A stretch of DNA of 32,156 nucleotides. It comes from Elusimicrobiaceae bacterium. GTDB lineage: Bacteria; Elusimicrobiota; Elusimicrobia; Elusimicrobiales; Elusimicrobiaceae. The stretch lies in the NCBI GenBank assembly GCA_017534965.1, contig JAFXVA010000014.1:1-32156 (forward strand). The letters run 5' to 3'. The position numbers and the translations under genes are program-made. The stretch's first letter is position 1. Each line of letters opens with the position of its first letter. Of the stretch, positions 20,561 to 32,156 are shown in pieces. The notes under the pieces are model-generated. The model had not been told where the DNA came from, did not search any database, and saw only the letters and a list, made by a program, of their open reading frames with translations.

Positions 20561-21895
20561 ATGAAAAAAGTTATAACCTATGGAACTTATGATTTATTAC
20601 ATTATGGGCATATTCATCTATTAGAACGCGCCAAAGCTTTGGGGGATTATCTTATAGTTGGCATAACTTCTGAGGCCTTTGATAAAGCGCGCGGTAAAAT
20701 AAATGTTCAACAATCTCTTATGGAAAGAATTGCCGCCGTTCGTGCAACAGGCCTGGCAGATAAGATAATTGTAGAAGAATATGAAGGGCAAAAAATAGAT
20801 GATATACAGCGTTATGATGTTGATGTTTTTGCTATAGGTTCCGATTGGAAAGATAAATTTGATTATTTAAAGGAATATTGTCAGGTCGTTTATTTAGATA
20901 GAACAGAAGGGGTATCTTCCTCAGATATAAGAACAGAACAACGCCAGGTTAAATTAGGTTTAGTAGGAGATCCTAGATATTTGTTAAAAATCAGTCGCGA
21001 AAGTAAGTTCGTTAATGGTCTAGTGGTAACTGCTATTTGCACTAATACTCCAAAAGAAAATATTGTTCTGCCACAGGAAAATTTATTTATTACACAAGAT
21101 TATTCCAAAATGCTTAAGGAAGTGGATGCTATTTATTTAATTTCTCATCCAAGCCGTCACTATGACCAAATTAAACAAGCCTTACTTGCCGGCAAACATG
21201 TATTGTGCGAAGCTCCTTTAACAATAAAAATAGCTGAATTTGACGAGCTGACAGAATTAGCACAAAAACAGAAATGTATTTTTATGCCGGCACTAAAAAC
21301 GGCTTATTCCATGGCTTATTATAGGTTAATCTTACTTGCTAAGACGGGGAAAATAGGGAAAATTGTATCTGTTGATGCTACCTGCACCAGTCTTCAAGAA
21401 AAGGATTCCATTAACTTAAATACCACTTGGAACAGTCTTTGTTATTGGGGACCTGCGGCCTTATTACCAGTGTTTCAATTATTAGGTACAGAATATAAAG
21501 ATAAGAATATAGTATCGCAGTTTTTTGATAAAAAAGAATTATTTGATAATTTTACTAAAATAGATTTTTATTATCCTGATGCTGTTGCCTCTATTAAAGT
21601 AGGTAAAGGTGTTAAATCAGAAGGGGAACTTATTATTTCCGGCACTAAAGGGTATATTTTTGTTCCTGCCCCTTGGTGGAAAACAGATTATTTTGAAATC
21701 CGCTATGAAGACCCTAACCAAAACCGCCGTTATTTTTATCAATTAGAAGGCGAAGGCATACGCTATGAACTTGTTAGTTTTGTTAAAGCTATAACTAGCG
21801 GACGTTCTTTTACTTATATAGATTCTTCCGTTTCTCGTGCCATGTGTGGCATTATGGAAGATTTTTATGCCCATAAATTAAAAGAAATAAATTAA
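20561..21895 (+). CDS. Cytidylyltransferase (TagD-like) fused to a degenerate Gfo/Idh/MocA domain
   Basis: The N-terminal ~128 residues are a glycerol-3-phosphate-type cytidylyltransferase: GTYDLLHYGH (residues 8-17, HxGH) and RTEGVSSSDIR (114-124), both nucleotide-binding signatures. It should load a phosphorylated compound with CMP. From about residue 131 a Gfo/Idh/MocA-like domain follows, but its dinucleotide loop is only GLVGDPR and the usual EKP is EAP (217-219), lacking the conserved Lys. That half may therefore be altered or non-redox. It is 444 aa. It is the last gene of the operon, 3 bp after the aminotransferase, with AAAGGAG inside that gene's end. Its likely product is a CDP-linked donor for LicD. 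Confidence 0.8.
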   Translation: MKKVITYGTYDLLHYGHIHLLERAKALGDYLIVGITSEAFDKARGKINVQQSLMERIAAVRATGLADKIIVEEYEGQKIDDIQRYDVDVFAIGSDWKDKFDYLKEYCQVVYLDRTEGVSSSDIRTEQRQVKLGLVGDPRYLLKISRESKFVNGLVVTAICTNTPKENIVLPQENLFITQDYSKMLKEVDAIYLISHPSRHYDQIKQALLAGKHVLCEAPLTIKIAEFDELTELAQKQKCIFMPALKTAYSMAYYRLILLAKTGKIGKIVSVDATCTSLQEKDSINLNTTWNSLCYWGPAALLPVFQLLGTEYKDKNIVSQFFDKKELFDNFTKIDFYYPDAVASIKVGKGVKSEGELIISGTKGYIFVPAPWWKTDYFEIRYEDPNQNRRYFYQLEGEGIRYELVSFVKAITSGRSFTYIDSSVSRAMCGIMEDFYAHKLKEIN

Positions 21896-22124: not shown

Positions 22125-23312
22125 CTATTTAGTTATAGTCCAACCCTTTGCGGTGGCAATGGCTTCATCATCGGCGGTTAAATCGCTTGCGCCTGTTGCG
22201 CCCACAATGCTGATAATTTGCCCTGCACTAACAATAGGCAAATCATTAAACAGTTGCACTAAAGCATTTCTGTCTAGGCCTGTCCTAGAAACATTTATTT
22301 GAGGTGGTGTAGCATTATTAAATGGGGCTTGATTTGATACACGCAAACCTTTAAGTCCGCCCATAAAACGAGGGGCCGTTGCGTAAGTTCCTATTTTAGT
22401 TAAATTTACTCCTTCGCTAGTATCTAATACTATATCTTCTAAACTTGTATCGTCAAATAATACAAGGTTTGCATTTGTTGCGGAAGTGAAATTAAGTTTA
22501 GGAAAAGATTTTAAATTATAGCAAGATTGAAATGCGCCAGAAAAAGTAGTGCAATTAGGTGTTTTTAGACTTCCTTTCACTCTTTCAATACCTGATATAT
22601 AAAAAAGATATTGCATAGTCGTAAAGTTAGTATTTTCAAATCTTACTTCTTTTATAGCAGATGTCTGATAAAAAACGCCGTAAGCAGTCATAGAAATATT
22701 TTGGCAGTCAAGAACAGGAACATAAGTTAAACTTGTTGCCCTTAAAAACAAACTATCAATACCGCTTAATTTAAGAGTATTATTTTTAGCGGTGCAGGCC
22801 TGCATAAGAGGTTGTTTATAATAGTTATATCGCCCGAAACCTTGATATAGATTTATTGAATTAGTTAAATTAAAATGCGCCCACAATACGCCTTGCTCCT
22901 CTTCACTACTTTCTACAATTCTTGCACAATGAAAAGTATTTATACTTTCATTTTCTGTTTGTGGGTAAATATCAATTATATGGGCTTTTGTTGCGCCTGT
23001 TGGTTCACTTATATCATAGCCTGGGGTATCGGTATAATCTTCCCAATCAGCCATAGAAAATTGGGCATTACTTGCATAATCTGCATAAGGTGTTCCGTCA
23101 ATAGCAACGGAATATCCTGCTGTTGTTGTTACAACAAATCCTATTGGGTAGCGTGTATCTACCAGCAAATAAACATGCCCTTCTTCTGCATTTTTTCTAA
23201 TATCGGGCCAACTTTCGGGTTTGTTCTTCCAATCGTTTTTCCCGGTATTTTCTACTGAAGTTTGTAAAGTAATAGTTTCTTCGTTTATATATTCTGGAGA
23301 AATATCTTTCAT
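22125..23312 (-). CDS. Phage-tail-associated-like leucine-rich-repeat (BspA-type) protein
   Basis: This 395-aa protein has no signal peptide or membrane segment. Its N-terminal ~150 residues form an unassigned domain rich in Tyr, Asp and Thr. Residues ~185-330 carry irregular repeats of the BspA/LRR_5 kind, for example LTYVPVLDC, IKEVRFENTNF, LKSFPKLNF and LEDIVLDTS. The C-terminus, with LDRNALVQLFNDLP and AIATAKGWTITK, matches an ending I know from phage tail or baseplate-associated and other LRR surface proteins. CGGAGAAA precedes the ATG. It lies 12 bp after the 99-aa phage-like gene. A receptor-binding or adhesion role is possible; lack of a signal peptide argues against an ordinary host adhesin. 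Confidence 0.6.
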   Translation of the reverse strand: MKDISPEYINEETITLQTSVENTGKNDWKNKPESWPDIRKNAEEGHVYLLVDTRYPIGFVVTTTAGYSVAIDGTPYADYASNAQFSMADWEDYTDTPGYDISEPTGATKAHIIDIYPQTENESINTFHCARIVESSEEEQGVLWAHFNLTNSINLYQGFGRYNYYKQPLMQACTAKNNTLKLSGIDSLFLRATSLTYVPVLDCQNISMTAYGVFYQTSAIKEVRFENTNFTTMQYLFYISGIERVKGSLKTPNCTTFSGAFQSCYNLKSFPKLNFTSATNANLVLFDDTSLEDIVLDTSEGVNLTKIGTYATAPRFMGGLKGLRVSNQAPFNNATPPQINVSRTGLDRNALVQLFNDLPIVSAGQIISIVGATGASDLTADDEAIATAKGWTITK

Positions 23313-23324
23313 AAAATTTCTCCG

Positions 23325-23624
23325 CTATTGAATAGAAATTTTTAAATCTTCCGAGCTAACTCCTGTTAAATCAACTCTTAAATATAAATCTACAAAATTT
23401 ATATAAATTATTTTATTGGCAACTAGTTCAATCTGCTCGCCTTCTTCGTTATATAAGGGGTAAAAGTTTACTTTGTCTTGGGATACTTCTAGTTTAGGGG
23501 TGCCAGTAAAAGTTCCTGTAGTTAAAATGCTTAAATATCTAATAGGGCCTTTATGCAAAGCTAATTCTTTGATATTTACTATTTCGTTTGTTGTAGGACT
23601 GGTAGATAAATCTGTAATAATCAT
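23325..23624 (-). CDS. Small phage-structural-like hypothetical protein
   Basis: This 99-aa protein is predicted mostly beta, with a central TTGTFTGTPKLEVSQDKVNFY segment. The pattern is 'tolerance/measurement'-like, recalling small beta-sandwich proteins encoded next to phage tail-fibre genes. There is no signal peptide. AAAGGAG, 8-9 bases before the ATG at 23624, and a consensus promoter upstream make it the first gene of the minus-strand cassette. I cannot assign a precise function; the phage link is inferred from sequence flavour and from the downstream tail-like gene. Confidence 0.55.
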   Translation of the reverse strand: MIITDLSTSPTTNEIVNIKELALHKGPIRYLSILTTGTFTGTPKLEVSQDKVNFYPLYNEEGEQIELVANKIIYINFVDLYLRVDLTGVSSEDLKISIQ

Positions 23625-25083: not shown

Positions 25084-26607
25084 ATGGATATTTTTTTACA
25101 ATTAACAAGCGCATGCGGGCGCTTTTTTTCTGACCCTTCTTTACAAAGTTTTTATGATGTAATGAATTATTTTAATGCTCTTATTTGGGGCCCGCCGATG
25201 ATTTTTCTTTTGTTATTCTTGGGTATTTATTTTACTTTTAAATTGCGCTTTATCCAAAGATACACTTGGTCTGCTATGAAACTTTCTTTAGCCAAGGCCG
25301 AAGCGGAAGGTATGGTAAGCAGTTTCGGTTCCCTTGCTATGATGATAGGGGCAACCGTTGGCACAGGCAGTATTATTGGTGTTACCACCGCCGTAGCGGA
25401 AGGCGGCCCCGGTGCATTATTTTGGATGGTGGTTGCGGGTTTCTTTAATTTCGCTATTAAATATAGTGAGTGTTTAATTGCTTTTAAATATCGTGTGCGC
25501 TTGCCAACGGCCGAATATGTCGGCGGTCCTATGTATTACTTAACTAATATTTTAAAGCTTAAATGGCTAGGTATTATTTTTGCAATAGGAACATTGCTTT
25601 TAGGTTTTACAGCAGGCAGTGCCTTACAGGCAAATTCCATTGCTGATGCCTTACGTGAAGGTTATAATCTTAATCCTTGGTATGTTTCTTTATTTATAGC
25701 TTTTTGCTCGGCAATAGTTATTTTAGGCGGAGTTAAGCGTATTGCTTCATATTCAGAATGGCTAGTGCCTATAATGGGGGCTCTTTATTTGTTTATTGCA
25801 ATAGTTGTTATTATTATGAATTTTAATAGTATTCCCGCAGCTATTATAACGGTTATAAAAGGTGCTTTTACCGGTAAAGCGGTTGCCGGTGGTGCTATAG
25901 GCGTGGGTATTATTGCTTTGGTTAAAGCTATGCTCCCCGGTATTACAGCCGGAGTAACCCGCGCTGTCCTTGCGACGGAAGCCGGCCTTGGCAGTGCTTC
26001 TATTGCTGCTGCAGCTGCGCGCACGCGTAGTGCTACACAAATGGCTATTGTTTCTGCTACGTCAGTTTTTTGGACTATTTTTATTTGTAGTTTAACCGGT
26101 ATAGTAATTGTTCTGGCAGGAGATTATACTAACCCAAATGTTTATGCGGCAAATTTATGTAATAGTGCTTTTAAAACGGTTCCTTATATAGGCACGCCTA
26201 TTTTAGTATTTTCTTTAGTTATATTTTCATTTACTACCATTATCGGTTGGGGCTATTATATAGAAAAGGCACTTCAGTTTTTATGTAAAGGTTCTAATAT
26301 ACTTGTAAAGCCTTCCCGCATTGTTTTTATTTTACTTGTGCTTGTGGGGGGTGTTATCGGCACGAGTTTTTCCACAGATTTATTTATAGGTGATTCTGTT
26401 TTGCGCACCGCTCAGGCCAATATGTCAACCCGTTTTATGTGGGCTTTGGCTGTTTTTACTATGACTATGATGACTGTTCCTAATATTTGGGCTTTATGGT
26501 GCTTTCGCAAAGTAATTTATAAAACAACCCAGAAAAATTTGCATGCTTTAGTCGGCAAAAAAGCGGAAGAATTTCGTCAAGAACAGGCAGAAAGCAAATC
26601 TAAATAA
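25084..26607 (+). CDS. Sodium:alanine symporter, AGCS family
   Basis: This is an inner-membrane Na+-coupled uptake carrier for alanine/glycine-type amino acids. The 507-aa protein has about 11 hydrophobic helices and the family-defining GATVGTGSIIGVTTAV...GGPGALFWM region near 96-120 (substrate/Na+ site). YVGGPMYYL near 147 and GLGSASIAAAAA near 300 are also AGCS landmarks. A lysine/glutamate-rich cytoplasmic tail ends it. AGGAGA lies 13 bases upstream, longer than ideal, but no in-frame alternative start fits better. It ends 7 bp from the convergent DUF3795 gene. Alanine is the most usual substrate; glycine or D-alanine are alternatives. Confidence 0.92.
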   Translation: MDIFLQLTSACGRFFSDPSLQSFYDVMNYFNALIWGPPMIFLLLFLGIYFTFKLRFIQRYTWSAMKLSLAKAEAEGMVSSFGSLAMMIGATVGTGSIIGVTTAVAEGGPGALFWMVVAGFFNFAIKYSECLIAFKYRVRLPTAEYVGGPMYYLTNILKLKWLGIIFAIGTLLLGFTAGSALQANSIADALREGYNLNPWYVSLFIAFCSAIVILGGVKRIASYSEWLVPIMGALYLFIAIVVIIMNFNSIPAAIITVIKGAFTGKAVAGGAIGVGIIALVKAMLPGITAGVTRAVLATEAGLGSASIAAAAARTRSATQMAIVSATSVFWTIFICSLTGIVIVLAGDYTNPNVYAANLCNSAFKTVPYIGTPILVFSLVIFSFTTIIGWGYYIEKALQFLCKGSNILVKPSRIVFILLVLVGGVIGTSFSTDLFIGDSVLRTAQANMSTRFMWALAVFTMTMMTVPNIWALWCFRKVIYKTTQKNLHALVGKKAEEFRQEQAESKSK

Positions 26608-26614
26608 TATAAAG

Positions 26615-26947
26615 TTATTTTTTTAGATTTTCTAAAGCTTCTTTATTGTTTTTATGTATTTGTGCTACTATTTGGCAAGTTTTCAAATCGGTACAAGCGG
26701 CGCAGGTTTCAAAATTTTTACTTTTTACGCATTTGCGCACTTGGCAAAGCGAACTGCAGAAAAATGTTTTTGCACCAGCAGTTCTGCAACCGGTGCAGTT
26801 AATCATTTCCGGCATAATTTCGGTCTTATTTAACTTGCTCCACAAATTGGCAGTTTTTTCTCTTAATTTATTATCGTTATTAAGGGTTGCGATGTAAGCG
26901 TCGCAGTTTTCACAATCAAGTCCGCAACAGGCTATAAGTTTTTTCAT
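26615..26947 (-). CDS. DUF3795 cysteine-rich protein
   Basis: This 110-aa small soluble protein has twelve cysteines: CCGLDCENC at residues 7-15, then CTGC and four further Cys pairs. The opening CGLDCENCDAYIAT is the hallmark of DUF3795, a family of unknown role likely to bind metal (zinc or iron-sulfur). The start at 26947 puts the protein at the family's normal N-terminus; an upstream in-frame start 8 codons earlier adds nothing recognisable. No Shine-Dalgarno sequence is present, but TATAAT lies 6 bases before the ATG, suggesting a leaderless message. It converges with the symporter gene. Confidence 0.82.
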   Translation of the reverse strand: MKKLIACCGLDCENCDAYIATLNNDNKLREKTANLWSKLNKTEIMPEMINCTGCRTAGAKTFFCSSLCQVRKCVKSKNFETCAACTDLKTCQIVAQIHKNNKEALENLKK

Positions 26948-26953
26948 AGCTAC

Positions 26954-26959
26954 ATTATA
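26954..26959 (-). promoter_or_regulatory. -10 element directly before the DUF3795 start
   Basis: On the minus strand TATAAT is followed by 6 bases and then the ATG at 26947, so transcription would begin at or next to the start codon. No -35 is convincing. Confidence 0.4.
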
Positions 26960-27020
26960 GAATATTAACAAAATTTATGCTTTTCTAAAAGTTGCAAAAT
27001 AAATATAGAGGTTTTTATGA

Positions 27021-27224
27021 TTGTTTTTTGTGTGCTTTATTTTACTAGTTTTATCTTTTTTTACCTATGGCAAATATGTGGAGCGCGTTTTCGGTCCGAC
27101 GGATGCTCAAAAGCCGGAAGTCCGCTTTGCTAATGGGGTTGATTATGTGCCAATGCCGCTTGGCCTTATTTTTACAGGGATAATTGCTACTTATTTCATA
27201 ATAAAAATGAAAAAAAGCAAATAA
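27021..27224 (+). pseudogene. cstA (carbon starvation protein) remnant
   Basis: A 67-codon frame encodes a hydrophobic helix followed by TYGKYVERVFGPTD and GVDYVPMP, which match the N-terminus of CstA peptide/pyruvate transporters (normally about 480-700 aa). Straight after PMP comes one more helix and a lysine-rich end, so the remaining helices are missing, as if an internal deletion joined the two ends. The only nearby ATG, at 27017 (AGAGG upstream), is out of frame by one base; the visible frame must start at TTG 27021 or be frameshifted. It could be translated as a two-helix microprotein, but decay of cstA is the simpler view. Confidence 0.55.
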
Positions 27225-27247
27225 CCAAAATATAACTTTTACCAATG

Positions 27248-27265
27248 ATGCTATTTTAATAGCAT
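27248..27265 (+). terminator. Weak hairpin after the cstA remnant
   Basis: The inverted repeat ATGCTAT/ATAGCAT around TTTA is followed by a T-rich but interrupted tract. It may end the upstream transcript before the MerR promoter. Confidence 0.35.
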
Positions 27266-27294
27266 AAGATTCCTTTATTTTTACAAATTTTTGC

Positions 27295-27325
27295 TTGACT
27301 TAGAGTCAACTCTAACTGCTATAAT
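27295..27325 (+). promoter_or_regulatory. MerR-type promoter with embedded operator
   Basis: TTGACT (27295-27300) and a perfect TATAAT (27320-27325) are separated by 19 bp, the over-long spacer typical of MerR-activated promoters. A perfect 7-bp inverted repeat TTAGAGT-CA-ACTCTAA (27300-27315) sits in that spacer. This matches the CTTAGAGT..ACTCTAAG type of operator known for AdhR/NmlR-like regulators. It precedes the merR gene, so it should control that gene and the operon behind it. Confidence 0.85.
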
Positions 27326-27342
27326 TTATGTAGGAGGTTTTT

Positions 27343-27720
27343 ATGACGATTTCCGAAGTAAGTAAAAAGTGTAATATTTCCGCTGATACTTTAAGATATT
27401 ATGAAAAGGTCGGTTTAATATCTTTTGTAAACAGAACTTCAGGCGGTCTTCGCGATTATAAGGAAGAAGACTGCAAGCAAATAATGTTTGTTAAATGTAT
27501 GCGCAGTGCGGGGCTTTCTATAGAAGTATTAAAAAAATATTTTGATTTATTTAAACGCGGTAAACGCACCTTAAAAACACGCAGAGATTTACTTGCAACG
27601 GAACGGGAAAAACTTAAAAAACATTTAACGGAACTACAAGATACAATTAAGCGTTTAGATTATAAAATTTCCGTTTATGATAAAGCACTAAAATCAAAAG
27701 ATAAAGAACTTAAATTTTAG
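27343..27720 (+). CDS. MerR-family regulator, AdhR-like
   Basis: This is a 125-aa DNA-binding activator. The winged helix-turn-helix lies at 1-40 (TISEVSKKCNISADTLRYYEKVGLI), followed by RDYKEEDCKQIMFVKCMRSAGLSIE and a long dimerisation coiled coil to the end. Cys52 in FVKCMRSAGLS aligns with the thiol that makes Bacillus AdhR respond to formaldehyde and methylglyoxal. There is no C-terminal metal-binding loop of the MerR/ZntR kind. TAGGAGG lies 5-7 bases before the ATG. The promoter in front carries a matching operator, so autoregulation and control of the downstream flavoprotein operon are likely. Response to aldehydes or other electrophiles is inference from Cys52. Confidence 0.9.
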   Translation: MTISEVSKKCNISADTLRYYEKVGLISFVNRTSGGLRDYKEEDCKQIMFVKCMRSAGLSIEVLKKYFDLFKRGKRTLKTRRDLLATEREKLKKHLTELQDTIKRLDYKISVYDKALKSKDKELKF

Positions 27721-27729
27721 GAGGTTATA

Positions 27730-28344
27730 ATGTTAAAAAAGATAATTATTATACTTGTAATTCTTGCTTTTATAGGTGCGCTAATAGCAATAATACATAA
27801 TTTAAGGGTTGCTTATAAAAACAAAAAAGAATTATCAAAGTTTAATCAGACAGAGGATTATAAAGCAAATTTAGGCAAAGTGCTTGTGGTTTATTATTCT
27901 TGGACGGGCCATACCCAAGATATTGCAGGGCAAATTGCCTCCTTAACAAAGGGCGATGTTTACCGCATTGAAACAGAAGAAGATTTTAAATCTTCTCCTG
28001 CTTTTTATGCTCGTGTTAAAAAGAACTTAAAGGAAAAGAATTATCCTAAATTAAAAGGTCAAATGCCAAATATTGATAGTTATGATACTATCTTTGTCGG
28101 CGGGCCTGTTTGGTGGTATACAATGGCAACACCGCTTTATTCTTTCTTGGGGCAAATGGATTTTAAAGGTAAAAAGATTATACCTTTTTCCACTCAAGGC
28201 AGTAATCCGGGCACATTTTTACAAGATTTTAAAAATGAAGCAAAAAATGCCCAAGTTGGCACTTATGCAAACTTTAATAATGTAAGTGCAAAATATAATA
28301 CCGAAGTTCATAATAAAATTATTCATTGGATAAATAATTTATAA
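27730..28344 (+). CDS. Membrane-anchored flavodoxin
   Basis: This flavodoxin-fold FMN protein has one N-terminal transmembrane helix (residues ~4-25) and a basic linker. The FMN phosphate loop YYSWTGHTQDIA is near 55-66, GGPVWWYTMATP near 122-133 supplies the isoalloxazine loop, and FSTQGSNPG near 153 completes the flavodoxin_4-type site. It is 204 aa. It starts 9 bp after the regulator gene, with AGGAGG overlapping that gene's stop, so it is co-transcribed. It should carry electrons at the membrane; which face it occupies cannot be settled from charge distribution, because both sides of the helix are basic. Confidence 0.82.
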   Translation: MLKKIIIILVILAFIGALIAIIHNLRVAYKNKKELSKFNQTEDYKANLGKVLVVYYSWTGHTQDIAGQIASLTKGDVYRIETEEDFKSSPAFYARVKKNLKEKNYPKLKGQMPNIDSYDTIFVGGPVWWYTMATPLYSFLGQMDFKGKKIIPFSTQGSNPGTFLQDFKNEAKNAQVGTYANFNNVSAKYNTEVHNKIIHWINNL

Positions 28345-28354
28345 GAGGAGCTTT

Positions 28355-28984
28355 ATGAAAGTATTATTGATTAACGGAAGTCCCCATAAAGAAGGTTGCA
28401 CTTTTACGGCTTTAAGCGAAATTGCAAAAACCTTAAATAAACATAATATTGAAACAGAAATTTTCCATATAGGTGCAAAACCTATTGCCGGATGTATTGC
28501 TTGTGGCAAATGCAAAGAAAATGGTAAATGTATCTATGAAGACGGAGTAAATGAAATTGGCTCAAGAATTGATACTTTTGATGCTATTGTTCTTGGTTCG
28601 CCTGTTTATTATGCCGGTCCTAGCGGGCAACTTTGTTCTTTTTGTGATCGTTTATTCTTTGCCAATTCCGGTAAAATGGCCGGTAAACTTGCCGCTGCGG
28701 TGGTATCTTGCCGAAGGGGCGGGGCAACGGCTTCTTTTGATAGATTAAACAAATATTTTACAATTACCAATATGCAGGTAGTAGGTTCGCAATATTGGAA
28801 TATGGTTCATGGTTTTACGCCCGAAGATGTTCGCAAAGATTTAGAAGGATTGCAAACTATGCGCACCCTTGGCGAAAATATGGCCTGGCTTTTAAAATGT
28901 ATAGAACTTGGTAAACAAAACGGAATTAATAGACCGACTTATGAACCTATAACATTTACTAATTTTATTAAAGGAGATAAATAA
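28355..28984 (+). CDS. Iron-sulfur flavoprotein (Isf-like) NAD(P)H-dependent oxidoreductase
   Basis: It is a flavodoxin-like fold of the NADPH-dependent FMN reductase superfamily. The N-terminal phosphate loop is INGSPHKEGCT. The compact cluster motif CIACGKCKENGKC (CX2CX2CX5C, near 47-59) matches that of iron-sulfur flavoprotein and should bind one [4Fe-4S]. GSPVYYAGPSG near 86 is the flavin loop. It is 209 aa with no signal peptide, so it is cytoplasmic. AGAGGAG lies upstream of the ATG and it begins 10 bp after the flavodoxin gene. It probably reduces a small electrophile, quinone or oxidant, or passes electrons to the flavodoxins. Confidence 0.82.
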   Translation: MKVLLINGSPHKEGCTFTALSEIAKTLNKHNIETEIFHIGAKPIAGCIACGKCKENGKCIYEDGVNEIGSRIDTFDAIVLGSPVYYAGPSGQLCSFCDRLFFANSGKMAGKLAAAVVSCRRGGATASFDRLNKYFTITNMQVVGSQYWNMVHGFTPEDVRKDLEGLQTMRTLGENMAWLLKCIELGKQNGINRPTYEPITFTNFIKGDK

Positions 28985-29946
28985 TGAAAAAAATAATCAG
29001 TGTAATTGTTGCATCAGTAGTTTTCTGTGCTTGTAGTAGCGCACAAAAGGAAGTAAATAAAGTTGAAGCTGTATCCCAAGATAAACCCATTGTTTATTTT
29101 ACAAAGGATATTAGCCCGGAAGGTCTTATAAAAATTTATGATAAGATTTCCCAAAATATTGACGGTAAAGTAGCCATTAAATTTCATACAGGCGAGCCGC
29201 ACGGCCCAAATATTTTACCGGTGCCTATGGTAAAAGCTTTATGGGAACATATTCCAAACAGCCGCCTTGTGGAAACAAATGTTTTTTATACTTCTCCGCG
29301 TCAAACAACAAAAGGCCATAGAGAAACTTTAAAAACAAACGGCTGGACCTTTACCGAAGTTGATATTTTAGATGAAGACGGCACAACAATGCTTCCTATC
29401 AAAGGGGGGAAACATTTTAAAGAAATGTCTATGGGTAGCCATATTTTAAATTATGATTCTTTAGTCGTTCTTACACACTTTAAAGGTCATGCTATGGGCG
29501 GTTATGGCGGCAGTATGAAGAATATTGCTATCGGTATGGCTGATGGCAAAATCGGCAAAAAAATGATACACCAAAAAGGCGATAATCAATGGGGTTATAC
29601 CGGTGGGCGTTTCCAAGAAAATATGGCAGAATCCGCCAAAGCAACGGTGGACCATTTCGGCAAAAAAATTGTATATATCAATGTTTTGCGCCGTATGTCT
29701 GTTGATTGTGATTGTGCAGGCACTTCTGCTGCAGAACCAAAAGCGCATGATATCGGTATTTTGGCTTCTACCAATATTGTAGCGGTGGACCAGGCCTCAC
29801 TTGACCAAGTTTATGCCTTGCCTGAAGCAGAATTGCACGATTTACAGGAACGCATAGAATCACGCGAGGGCTTACGCCAAATTTCCTATATGAAAGAACT
29901 CGGTATGGGCAGTGGCGAATATACTTTGGTAAATATTGATAAATAA
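28984..29946 (+). CDS. DUF362 domain lipoprotein
   Basis: This 320-aa protein has a short signal and possible lipobox VFCAC (Cys17). The body is a DUF362 domain: VAIKFHTGEPHGPN near 62, ETNVFYTSPRQTT, LTHFKGHAMGGYGGSMKN near 162, and INVLRRMSVDCDC near 238, followed by DIGILASTNIVAVDQAS. Many DUF362 proteins carry an extra ferredoxin domain; this one does not, but the conserved His, Cys and Asp residues could hold a metal or cluster. Its ATG shares one base with the TAA of the Isf-like gene, so it is coupled to it. Function is unknown; the redox operon suggests an envelope electron-transfer or metal-linked role. Confidence 0.8.
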   Translation: MKKIISVIVASVVFCACSSAQKEVNKVEAVSQDKPIVYFTKDISPEGLIKIYDKISQNIDGKVAIKFHTGEPHGPNILPVPMVKALWEHIPNSRLVETNVFYTSPRQTTKGHRETLKTNGWTFTEVDILDEDGTTMLPIKGGKHFKEMSMGSHILNYDSLVVLTHFKGHAMGGYGGSMKNIAIGMADGKIGKKMIHQKGDNQWGYTGGRFQENMAESAKATVDHFGKKIVYINVLRRMSVDCDCAGTSAAEPKAHDIGILASTNIVAVDQASLDQVYALPEAELHDLQERIESREGLRQISYMKELGMGSGEYTLVNIDK

Positions 29947-29964
29947 AATCTAGAGTATAAAAAA

Positions 29965-29986
29965 TTTAGGTGCTTGGAAACCTGAA
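29965..29986 (+). other. Hairpin inside the redox operon
   Basis: TTTAGGT (29965-29971) can pair with ACCTGAA (29980-29986), with one G-U pair, around an 8-base loop, in the 80-bp gap between the DUF362 and second Isf-like genes. There is no T run, so it is not a standard terminator; it could be an mRNA processing or stability element. Confidence 0.3.
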
Positions 29987-30026
29987 GATTAAGAGATTTT
30001 AAAAAAGGAAATTATAAGGAGATTAT

Positions 30027-30566
30027 ATGAGTAAAAAAGTTTTAATTATTTCTGCTTCACCGCGCAAGGGGGGCAATTCTGATGTTTTATGCGACCAATT
30101 TTTACTTGGTGCAAAAGAAGCTGGCCACGAGGTGGAAAAAGTGTTTTTGCGCGATAAAAAAATAAATTATTGTATGGGTTGCGGTGTGTGTAATAACACT
30201 CATACCTGCGTGCAAAAAGACGATATGAAAGACCTTCTTGAAAAAATGGTTAAGGCAGATGTTCTTGTGCTTGCTACCCCGGTTTATTTTTACACAATGG
30301 ACGGCCAACTTAAAACATTTATTGACCGCTGTGTTTCCAGATATACCGAAATGACAAATAAAGAAGTTTATTTTATCGTAAGTGCCGCCGATACCGAAAA
30401 AGCAAATTTAAAACCTACAATAGAGGGCTTGCGCGGTTTTACGCGTGATTGTCTTGAAGGCACAAAAGAAAAAGGCATTATTTACGGAACAGGTGCTTGG
30501 CAAGTCGGCGAAATCAAGAATTTACCCGTCTATCAAGAAGCTTATGAAACAGGCAAAAAGTGCTAA
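30027..30566 (+). CDS. Second iron-sulfur flavoprotein-like NAD(P)H-dependent oxidoreductase
   Basis: This 179-aa flavodoxin-like protein is related to the first Isf-like protein but shorter. It opens with ISASPRKGGNSD (FMN phosphate loop). The CMGCGVCNNTHTC motif (CX2CX2CX5C, near 50-62) should bind a [4Fe-4S] cluster, and ATPVYFYTMDGQLKTFIDR near 91 is the flavin/dimer region. No signal peptide is present. AAGGAG lies 7-8 bases before the ATG. The 80-bp gap upstream is the largest in the operon and contains a hairpin. Two such reductases in one operon suggest different substrates or a relay. Confidence 0.82.
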   Translation: MSKKVLIISASPRKGGNSDVLCDQFLLGAKEAGHEVEKVFLRDKKINYCMGCGVCNNTHTCVQKDDMKDLLEKMVKADVLVLATPVYFYTMDGQLKTFIDRCVSRYTEMTNKEVYFIVSAADTEKANLKPTIEGLRGFTRDCLEGTKEKGIIYGTGAWQVGEIKNLPVYQEAYETGKKC

Positions 30567-30576
30567 AAGGAAAATT

Positions 30577-31590
30577 ATGAAAAAACTATTATTGTTAGCA
30601 GTTATTTTACTTGGAGGTTTAACAATGGCAACAGCAAAAAGTTGGGATAAAGTGTTTACAAAAAGCGATAACGTTTCTGTTAAAAAAGTGCATTTTAACA
30701 ATCGCTATGGCATAAAATTAGCAGGAGATTTATATATGCCAAAAAACATTAAAAAAGGTGATAAACTAGCGGCAATTGCCGTCAGCGGTCCTTTTGGCGC
30801 GGTTAAAGAACAATCTTCCGGTCTTTATGCGCAAACTATGGCAGAGCGCGGTTTTATTGCGCTTGCTTTTGACCCTTCTTATACAGGAGAATCTTCCGGC
30901 AAACCAAGAAATGTTGCTTCCCCCGATATTAACACAGAAGATTTTAGCGCAGCAGTAGATTATTTAACTACTTTACCTAATGTAGATGAAGATAAAATCG
31001 GTATTATCGGTATTTGCGGTTTTGGCGGTTGGGCTTTAAATGCGGCCGCTATGGATACGCGCATTAAAGCAACGGTTGTTTCTACAATGTATGATATGAC
31101 GCGTGTGGCCGCTAAAGGTTATAATGATTCTATTGACGAAAATGCCCGTTATGAAATGCTTAAAGCTTTAAATGCTCAGCGCACAAAAGATTATAAAAAC
31201 GGCACCTATGCCGGAGCCGATGGCTTACCGGAAAAATTAACAGGCCAAGAACCGCAATTTGTGAAAGATTATTTTAATTATTACAAAACACCGCGCGGTT
31301 TTCACCCACGCTCAATTAACTCTAACGGCAAATGGAACACAACTTCTTCTTTAGGGCTTATAAATCAACCGGCTTTGCAACGTTCCGGTGAAATTAGAAA
31401 TGCCGTTTTAGTTATCCACGGCGAAAAAGCCCACAGCCGCTATTTTGGCGAAGATGCCTTTAAAAAATTAAAAGGCACAAATAAAGAATTGCTTATCATC
31501 CCGGGTGCAAGTCATGTTGATTTATATGATAATATGGCAAAAATTCCGTTTGATAAAATAGAAAATTTCTTTAAAACTAACTTGAAATAA
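30577..31590 (+). CDS. Exported alpha/beta hydrolase with Cys nucleophile motif (YcjY/dienelactone hydrolase-like)
   Basis: The start at 30577 (AAAAGG upstream, 10 bp after the previous stop) gives 337 aa with a Sec signal peptide, MKKLLLLAVILLGGLTMATA. An open frame running 44 codons further upstream overlaps the previous gene and would bury the signal. The hydrolase core follows: the oxyanion region is AVSGPFG near 67, and the nucleophile elbow GICGFGG places Cys147 where Ser is usual. The acid probably lies near 283-292, and the base is H313 in PGASHVD. Cys-for-Ser elbows are seen in dienelactone hydrolases and in YcjY-type proteins. It probably hydrolyses a small ester or thioester outside the cytoplasm. 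Substrate is unknown. Confidence 0.82.
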   Translation: MKKLLLLAVILLGGLTMATAKSWDKVFTKSDNVSVKKVHFNNRYGIKLAGDLYMPKNIKKGDKLAAIAVSGPFGAVKEQSSGLYAQTMAERGFIALAFDPSYTGESSGKPRNVASPDINTEDFSAAVDYLTTLPNVDEDKIGIIGICGFGGWALNAAAMDTRIKATVVSTMYDMTRVAAKGYNDSIDENARYEMLKALNAQRTKDYKNGTYAGADGLPEKLTGQEPQFVKDYFNYYKTPRGFHPRSINSNGKWNTTSSLGLINQPALQRSGEIRNAVLVIHGEKAHSRYFGEDAFKKLKGTNKELLIIPGASHVDLYDNMAKIPFDKIENFFKTNLK

Positions 31591-31602
31591 AAGGAGCAAT
31601 AT

Positions 31603-32156
31603 ATGAAGAAAATATTAGTATTTTTAACAGCAGTTTTATTTGTTATGGCCTGTAATGCCAAACCTACTGCAAAACAGGCCACAAAGCCCGCACCGGCGCA
31701 AAAGAAAAATGTGTTAGTTGCTTATTTTTCCGCCACAGGCACAACAAAAAAAGTGGCCCAAAATTTAGCCCAAATAACTAAGGGCGATATTTACGAAATA
31801 AAACCTTTAACACTTTATACAAGCGAAGATTTAGATTGGACTAATCCCAATTCACGCACTTCCTTAGAGATGAAAGATCAAACTTCCCGCCCGGGTATAG
31901 TGCCGGAAAATCTTTCTCTTAAAGATTATGATACTATTTATCTTGGTTTTCCTATTTGGTGGGGAACGGCACCAACAATAGTAAGAACTTTTCTTGAAAA
32001 ACAAGATTTTTCAAACAAAAAAGTTATTATCTTTGTTACTTCAGGAACCAGCGGTATTGGTAATGTAGATCAAGATTTAAAATCAAGTATATCTTCTTCT
32101 GCGATAATTATTAAAGGCAAAGCCCTAAACGGCAACCCTTCTATTGAAGAATTAAC
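31603..32156 (+). CDS. Flavodoxin lipoprotein (partial, runs off the window)
   Basis: From ATG 31603, AAGGAG lies 7 bases upstream, and 184 codons are open to the window edge without a stop. The signal MKKILVFLTAVLFVMAC ends in a good lipobox with Cys17. A proline/alanine/lysine linker follows, then a flavodoxin domain: LVAYFSATGTTKKVA (FMN phosphate loop), LGFPIWWGTAPT (flavin loop) and FVTSGTSGIG. It is a paralogue-type partner of the membrane-anchored flavodoxin at the operon start, but attached by lipid. Gene order and spacing (12 bp) put it in the same operon. The C-terminus, roughly the last helix and strand, is missing here. Confidence 0.85.
   Translation, partial: MKKILVFLTAVLFVMACNAKPTAKQATKPAPAQKKNVLVAYFSATGTTKKVAQNLAQITKGDIYEIKPLTLYTSEDLDWTNPNSRTSLEMKDQTSRPGIVPENLSLKDYDTIYLGFPIWWGTAPTIVRTFLEKQDFSNKKVIIFVTSGTSGIGNVDQDLKSSISSSAIIIKGKALNGNPSIEEL

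Follow-up and report, generated by a model that had tools for sequence, protein, structure and literature searches.

The AdhR box of Bacillus reads CTTAAAG-N4-CTTTAAG. MerR proteins, as outlined in the excerpts of a review used here, bind a long promoter spacer of 19 to 20 bp, repress from there and, on activation, kink the DNA to fit RNA polymerase (PMC9909328). In the portions of the respective papers that we draw on, AdhR is described as having a "single conserved cysteine" (PMC3499171), its targets are given as adhA-yraA and yraC (PMC11577753), and the C52A exchange is said to abolish its induction (PMC4776306). The AdhR and NmlR regulators in general need the cysteine at position 52 or 54, and the excerpted text of the 2016 review that states this reports no adduct (PMC4776306). 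According to the same excerpts, NmlR-type regulators occur mostly in Gram-positives, Clostridium included, and those of Gram-negatives come from Neisseria and the Pasteurellaceae only (PMC4776306).

Here we compare with these systems a merR locus of the Elusimicrobiaceae that lies in a stretch of 32,156 nt analyzed at its full length (the window); as contig 30, it belongs to a genome of 1.32 Mb estimated to be 96.5% complete. In our reading, to which we give a probability of about 75%, the locus is an autoregulated, electrophile-triggered MerR switch of the AdhR/NmlR type that would drive merR and at least six redox or detoxification genes as one operon, with a presumed electrophilic inducer, presumed cysteine chemistry, and predicted induction of the whole operon. 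The promoter and the regulator comprise the following features.

27295-27300, + strand: -35 element TTGACT, read directly
27300-27315, + strand: operator TTAGAGT-CA-ACTCTAA, an AdhR-type box, read directly; the same kind stands upstream of the Bacillus spizizenii regulator and across the family
27301-27319, + strand: spacer of 19 nt, read directly
27320-27325, + strand: -10 element TATAAT, read directly
27333-27337, + strand: Shine-Dalgarno sequence GGAGG of merR, read directly
27343-27720, + strand: merR, predicted AdhR/NmlR-type regulator of 125 aa without a separate effector domain (Pfam MerR_1 3.9e-17; NmlR model 1.8e-38; structure model)
27472-27474, + strand: codon of Cys44, read directly and placed by alignment
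27496-27498, + strand: codon TGT of Cys52, the position that AdhR of Bacillus subtilis needs for activation (PMC4776306, as excerpted)

A preliminary description of this DNA had announced a TTGACT-19-TATAAT promoter, and both its coordinates and its letters were right on direct reading. It had also placed a perfect inverted repeat inside the spacer; the repeat is indeed perfect, but it overlaps the end of the -35 element by one base, its initial T, and 15 of its 16 bases lie within the spacer. Transcription is predicted to start at about 27332, leaving a leader of some 11 nt before merR, so that the merR transcript would open directly with its Shine-Dalgarno sequence. The coding frame opens with the ATG at 27343, and its stop codon ends at 27720. 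Within the window, every Rfam family stayed below its gathering score, and an RNA element at the locus was rejected on this ground. Just upstream of the promoter, at 27021-27224 on the + strand, there is a 67-aa frame that is hydrophobic at both ends and whose stretch GKYVERVFG...NGVDYVPM presumably resembles the beginning of CstA carbon-starvation proteins.

The regulator contains three cysteines (Cys10, Cys44, and Cys52) and, apart from MerR_1, matches the Pfam family MerR-DNA-bind (4.5e-07). Its structure model (mean pLDDT, 90.8) predicts helices at residues 3-10, 14-23, 41-55, 60-71, and 74-123; the last would form the chain end as a single helix, without a C-terminal metal-binding loop, and Cys44 and Cys52 would both lie on helix 41-55. 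The best fold matches of the model were the Listeria MerR protein 3gp4 and NmlR of Haemophilus influenzae (HiNmlR; 5d90/5d8c). Starting 9 nt after merR, six genes follow on the same strand.

27730-28344, + strand: F1, flavodoxin-like protein with an N-terminal hydrophobic segment (Flavodoxin_4 1.6e-22)
28355-28984, + strand: R1, NADPH-dependent FMN reductase family (FMN_red 6.4e-32)
28984-29946, + strand: D, DUF362 protein with a lipoprotein-like start, judged by eye (DUF362 3.1e-40)
30027-30566, + strand: R2, NADPH-dependent FMN reductase family (FMN_red 6.5e-26)
30577-31590, + strand: H, alpha/beta hydrolase, dienelactone hydrolase-like (Pfam; at 11 sites in relatives, a homologue is the first gene after the box); the ATG at 30577 was taken as the start, the mechanical frame opening at 30445
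31603-32156, + strand: F2, second flavodoxin, incomplete, the contig and the window both ending within it (Flavodoxin_4 1.1e-55)

The intergenic gaps are 9 to 12 nt or a one-base overlap throughout, except before R2, where 80 nt separate 29946 from 30027 and a terminator scan found nothing on the + strand. This tight packing, together with the same box standing before homologues of the operon genes in relatives, supports the prediction of a regulated operon. AdhA, YraA, and YraC are absent among the operon genes read (by Pfam), and no CMD protein was found in the genome. The preliminary description had taken the host to be probably an anaerobe, which fits, since no protein of the cytochrome bd family and no haem-copper oxidase subunit I (COX1) was found in the genome (controls positive in 10/14 and 8/14 genomes, respectively). 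The named relatives closest to the regulator come from Elusimicrobiaceae assemblies, including those from goat abomasum, sheep rumen, and yak rumen and rectum. Elsewhere in the window, a single frame at 20561-21895 (+) combines a cytidylyltransferase domain with a Gfo/Idh/MocA dehydrogenase domain; it follows a class-V aminotransferase gene and lies near a LicD gene, by appearance in a surface-polysaccharide cluster. Two adjoining frames of 395 and 99 aa at 22125-23624 (-) gave no Pfam match at an E value of ≤0.001.

A full-length merR homologue is present in 54 of the 90 family genomes, the window's own included; a 55th genome (G040) has two merR fragments and four boxes and was excluded from the orthologue counts. 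The orthologue set, in which the window's copy is joined by a single stretch per genome from the 53 others, falls into clade A, to which the window belongs (17 homologues, at least 75% identity), and clade B (37 homologues, 53 to 59%), and the two were never found together in one family genome (E ≤1e-10). As in the MerR superfamily, where the operator lies in the 19- to 20-bp spacer of a sigma-70 promoter, the -35 element, both half-sites, and the -10 element stand directly upstream of merR in 47 of the 54 orthologues, a count in which other spacings are undetectable because the pattern fixes the spacer at 19 nt. The seven failures were inspected by eye: all belong to clade A, have no operator directly upstream, and carry a gene for an Fe-alcohol dehydrogenase (Fe-ADH; named after one scanned representative) ahead of merR, with the box before the Fe-ADH gene in 7/7 cases, although in one locus (L036) this gene is split into two frames. 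Each of the 54 regulators thus stands behind a box. The host genome itself has three Fe-ADH proteins, but these are at most 30% identical to the regulon Fe-ADH, and for this reason they are not likely to be its unboxed orthologues.

In the 47 promoters with a direct box, the -35 element begins TTGAC in all but one (TTAAC), and the -35, half-site, and -10 columns mostly hold 1 to 2 bits, compared with 0.03 to 0.30 bits at positions 30 to 10 upstream of the -35 element and 0.6 to 0.9 bits in a stretch rich in A at positions 9 to 5 upstream. Behind merR, the 16 other clade A loci carry the operon gene set in shuffled order (DUF362 in 14, F1 in 13, R2 in 11), counts that are too low wherever the picking of open reading frames favored a frame on the opposite strand or the contig broke off; for these reasons, 8 of the 37 clade B loci show no downstream run. 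The reactive-cysteine position named in the preliminary description is encoded and kept in every one of the 54 family orthologues, the window's included. Cys44 is equally constant, being present in 54/54 family orthologues and in 58 of 60 other relatives (L149, a 23-aa frame, left aside). Another set, of 80 loci, was retrieved with a pair of peptide patterns; as Cys52 is part of one pattern, the conservation of this residue among these loci is biased, whereas the 54 family orthologues are free of this bias.

The box reaches beyond merR. A relaxed 31-mer (≤2 mismatches) matched in 64 of the 90 family genomes, its reversed control in none of the 90, and of 198 genomes sampled from the whole phylum, 43 contained a relaxed site with ≤1 mismatch, again with reversed controls of zero. 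The box is present in every one of the 54 genomes with a full-length merR and in 9/35 without one (Fisher 3e-15, ignoring kinship and excluding G040); for three of these nine, the box lies no more than about 400 nt from a contig end. Clade A genomes have fewer boxes (23 in 17 genomes, 1 to 3 each) than clade B genomes (148 in 37, 1 to 11 each; Mann-Whitney p 5e-8, kinship ignored), which, together with the mutual exclusion of the clades, possibly reflects replacement or a contraction of the regulon. In another family of the phylum, three genomes (G107, G182, and G186) hold two or three boxes each, partly close together on one contig.

Within 93 loci, we found 116 boxes, 112 with a downstream frame and 4 without (those of L174, L196, and L197 and the second box of L044). 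The frame directly behind the box is merR at 46 sites, a YraC-like protein of the CMD type at 17, the alpha/beta hydrolase H at 11, and Fe-ADH at 10; flavodoxins and DUF362 proteins follow with 5 each; cupin or CMD-cupin proteins, aldo-keto reductases, FMN reductases (one cut by the stretch end), and DXP-synthase-like proteins with 3 each; metallo-beta-lactamase folds and DUF1893 with 2 each; and an outer-membrane barrel and a probably spurious 61-aa frame (L064) with 1 each. The family names come from a Pfam scan of cluster representatives only, and since 40 of the loci were hand-picked from a listing of box positions in the family genomes that, unlike the counts per genome, is incomplete, these cluster sizes are not frequencies. 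Homologues of the operon genes have a box of their own in relatives: those of H are 72 to 81% identical and those of DUF362 66 to 77%, F1 (73%) and R1 (79%, over a stretch that is cut) are represented at one site each and R2 (53 to 55%) at two, while boxed flavodoxins at four sites are 30 to 34% like F2. At L188, L189, and L190, the box lies 49 nt before the DXP-synthase-like gene (one representative scanned), an unexpected target with no obvious role in detoxification. Among the matches listed in our search of the titles and abstract openings of the open-licence literature, no such regulon is described, and the excerpts of the literature on Clostridium beijerinckii and Thermoanaerobacterium draw no link between a MerR regulator of this type and its targets.

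One of the 80 pattern-fetched loci is that of Bacillus spizizenii, which we take to be adhR from its divergent neighbors resembling yraC, adhA, and yraA. Its regulator is 52% identical to ours over 124 aa, and the locus carries the box TTGACTTAAAGTTAACTTTAA and a divergent yraC-like gene. The product of that gene is 46% identical to a boxed CMD-cupin protein of an Elusimicrobiaceae genome (G012), one of the nine boxed genomes in which merR was not detected. Among 61 loci outside the Elusimicrobiaceae, a box scoring ≥20/25 lies within 400 nt of merR in 34 (shuffles, 0/1220), and no box reached this score within that distance in the other 27. Within 4.5 kb on either strand, one type of aldo-keto reductase occurs in 18 of these 61 loci, CMD-cupin proteins in 10, and DUF362 proteins in 9, and flavodoxins and FMN reductases also recur.

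We propose that a MerR dimer would sit on TTAGAGT-N2-ACTCTAA in a promoter whose 19-nt spacer is presumably too long for efficient initiation. A reactive carbonyl or another soft electrophile may then modify Cys52, perhaps together with Cys44, and the modified dimer would kink and unwind the DNA such that the -35 and -10 elements come into register, upon which merR and at least six downstream genes would be transcribed as a single operon. An electrophile-triggered, autoregulated activator is suggested because AdhR and NmlR need the cysteine at position 52 or 54, the protein is predicted to be of the short form, both Cys44 and Cys52 are modeled on helix 41-55, and the nearest folds are 3gp4 and HiNmlR.

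Could the repeat be a chance inverted repeat in an ordinary promoter, without regulatory meaning? Taken singly, its two parts are unremarkable in this DNA: the window has 8 perfect 7-N2-7 repeats and 10 promoters with a 19-nt spacer and at least a 5/6 match in both boxes, and ordinary promoters with 16- to 18-nt spacers number 26 in 26600-32156 against a shuffle mean of 20.8 (sd, 5.0). From base composition, this very repeat, its two middle bases left free, would occur 0.0004 times in the window and 0.017 times in the genome, and the combined 31 nt of -35 element, operator, and -10 element about 5e-8 times per genome; the latter was observed once. A scan for more copies of the operator, proposed in the preliminary description, yielded none in the 1.32-Mb genome besides the merR box, whether for the exact operator, the -35 element plus operator with ≤3 mismatches, or the relaxed 31-mer with ≤3 mismatches (reversed-pattern controls, 0 in each case). 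It is conservation, rather than either DNA part alone, that makes the case for more than chance, and we reject the chance reading, whose probability we regard as practically nil, on the joint conservation of all three promoter parts in 47 orthologues, the empty reversed-pattern controls in the 90 and the 198 genomes, and the co-occurrence of the box with merR across the family.

Two other alternatives concern the signal rather than the DNA. That the protein is a MerR-family autoregulator sensing a metal or a small noncovalently bound ligand, with a merely structural Cys52, seems improbable: the fold is common to metal sensors, and claims of zinc dependence for NmlR are mentioned in the excerpted review (PMC9909328), but the model lacks the C-terminal metal-binding loop and ends in a predicted helix, the NmlR model outscores that of CueR by 66 bits, and the related 3gp4 has a Gln at the Cys52 position, which indicates that the MerR fold does not need this cysteine. 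It is less far-fetched, although we still consider it rather unlikely, that the same switch responds to a quinone, a nitro compound, or redox stress, in which case the DUF362 protein would join the flavodoxins and FMN reductases in a chain for reductive detoxification. Of the six downstream genes, four encode flavodoxin or FMN_red proteins, and the lack of an adhA homologue in the operon and of a detected CMD protein in the genome points the same way; however, the box before Fe-ADH, aldo-keto reductase, and YraC-like genes in relatives fits carbonyl stress, and the carbonyl and quinone or redox classes are not mutually exclusive. We retain the electrophile-triggered switch as the preferred reading. 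Against it count the NmlR score below the curated cut-off, a tree that does not place AdhR, the missing Cys44 of the Bacillus protein, the nine boxed genomes in which merR was not detected, the three boxed DXP-synthase-like genes, and the 27 outside loci without a box of sufficient score. As a more tentative extension of the preferred reading, for which we would claim some plausibility but not the better odds, a two-cysteine (Cys44/Cys52) AdhR-like branch found in many anaerobes may govern reductive detoxification without the thiol-dependent AdhA, through flavodoxins, FMN reductases, DUF362 proteins, Fe-ADH, and aldo-keto reductases; in the lineage of the window, the regulon would be gathered in a few merR-led operons (1 to 3 boxes per genome), while a second lineage of the family would have kept it scattered (1 to 11).

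The locus provides a testable stress switch and a candidate regulon for the Elusimicrobiaceae, a scarcely cultured family of gut dwellers represented here almost only by metagenome assemblies, and adds another phylum, with its box and target set, to the NmlR-type regulators. The regulon and the second cysteine are of more interest than the switch itself, which belongs to the known AdhR/NmlR kind. The function of DUF362 and that of the small alpha/beta hydrolase also gain a lead, because relatives carry homologues of each immediately after the box, and the merR promoter is short enough for a laboratory reporter.

Compared with the NmlR proteins of H. influenzae, Neisseria, and Streptococcus pneumoniae, which according to the PDB titles are short MerR proteins without a sensor domain, the regulator is alike in its form, and with HiNmlR, to which it is about 30% identical, it shares the fold and the conserved cysteine (Cys54 in H. 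influenzae; PMC4776306, as excerpted). The same excerpts give glutathione-dependent adhC-estD targets for Haemophilus and Neisseria, unlike the genes found here (PMC4776306). The closest solved structure, by both sequence and fold, is Listeria 3gp4, which however has a Gln at the Cys52 position and, like HiNmlR, a Leu at that of Cys44. NmlR is the best family model for our protein (131 bits, against 65 for CueR), but this score lies below the curated NmlR equivalog cut-off of 175; the AdhR-type protein of B. spizizenii (150 bits) and five further proteins (128 to 152) also stay below it, and the cut-off is thus narrower than the AdhR/NmlR group. In a tree of 128 columns, 43 of the 84 inner branches are open, and the placement of AdhR relative to our protein is not fixed.

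The label "AdhR-like" from the preliminary description holds for the sequence identity to the B. spizizenii regulator, the layout of box and promoter, and Cys52, but not for the whole system. The B. spizizenii box (CTTAAAG-TTAA-CTTTAAG, against CTTAGAG-TCAA-CTCTAAC in the window) resembles ours in its arrangement with the -35 element, whereas its -10 element, TACCTT, is poorer than the TATAAT found here, and YraC-type proteins behind the box in relatives are a further likeness. In contrast, position 44 is an Ile in B. spizizenii and a conserved cysteine in our group, AdhR is described with a single conserved cysteine against the three cysteines present here, and where AdhR controls adhA-yraA and yraC, merR is followed here by flavodoxins, FMN reductases, a DUF362 protein, and a hydrolase. 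Judged by model score, box, layout, and the conserved Cys52, the regulator is best filed in the AdhR/NmlR group, of which it is a member with an added Cys44 and targets of its own rather than an AdhR in the strict sense.
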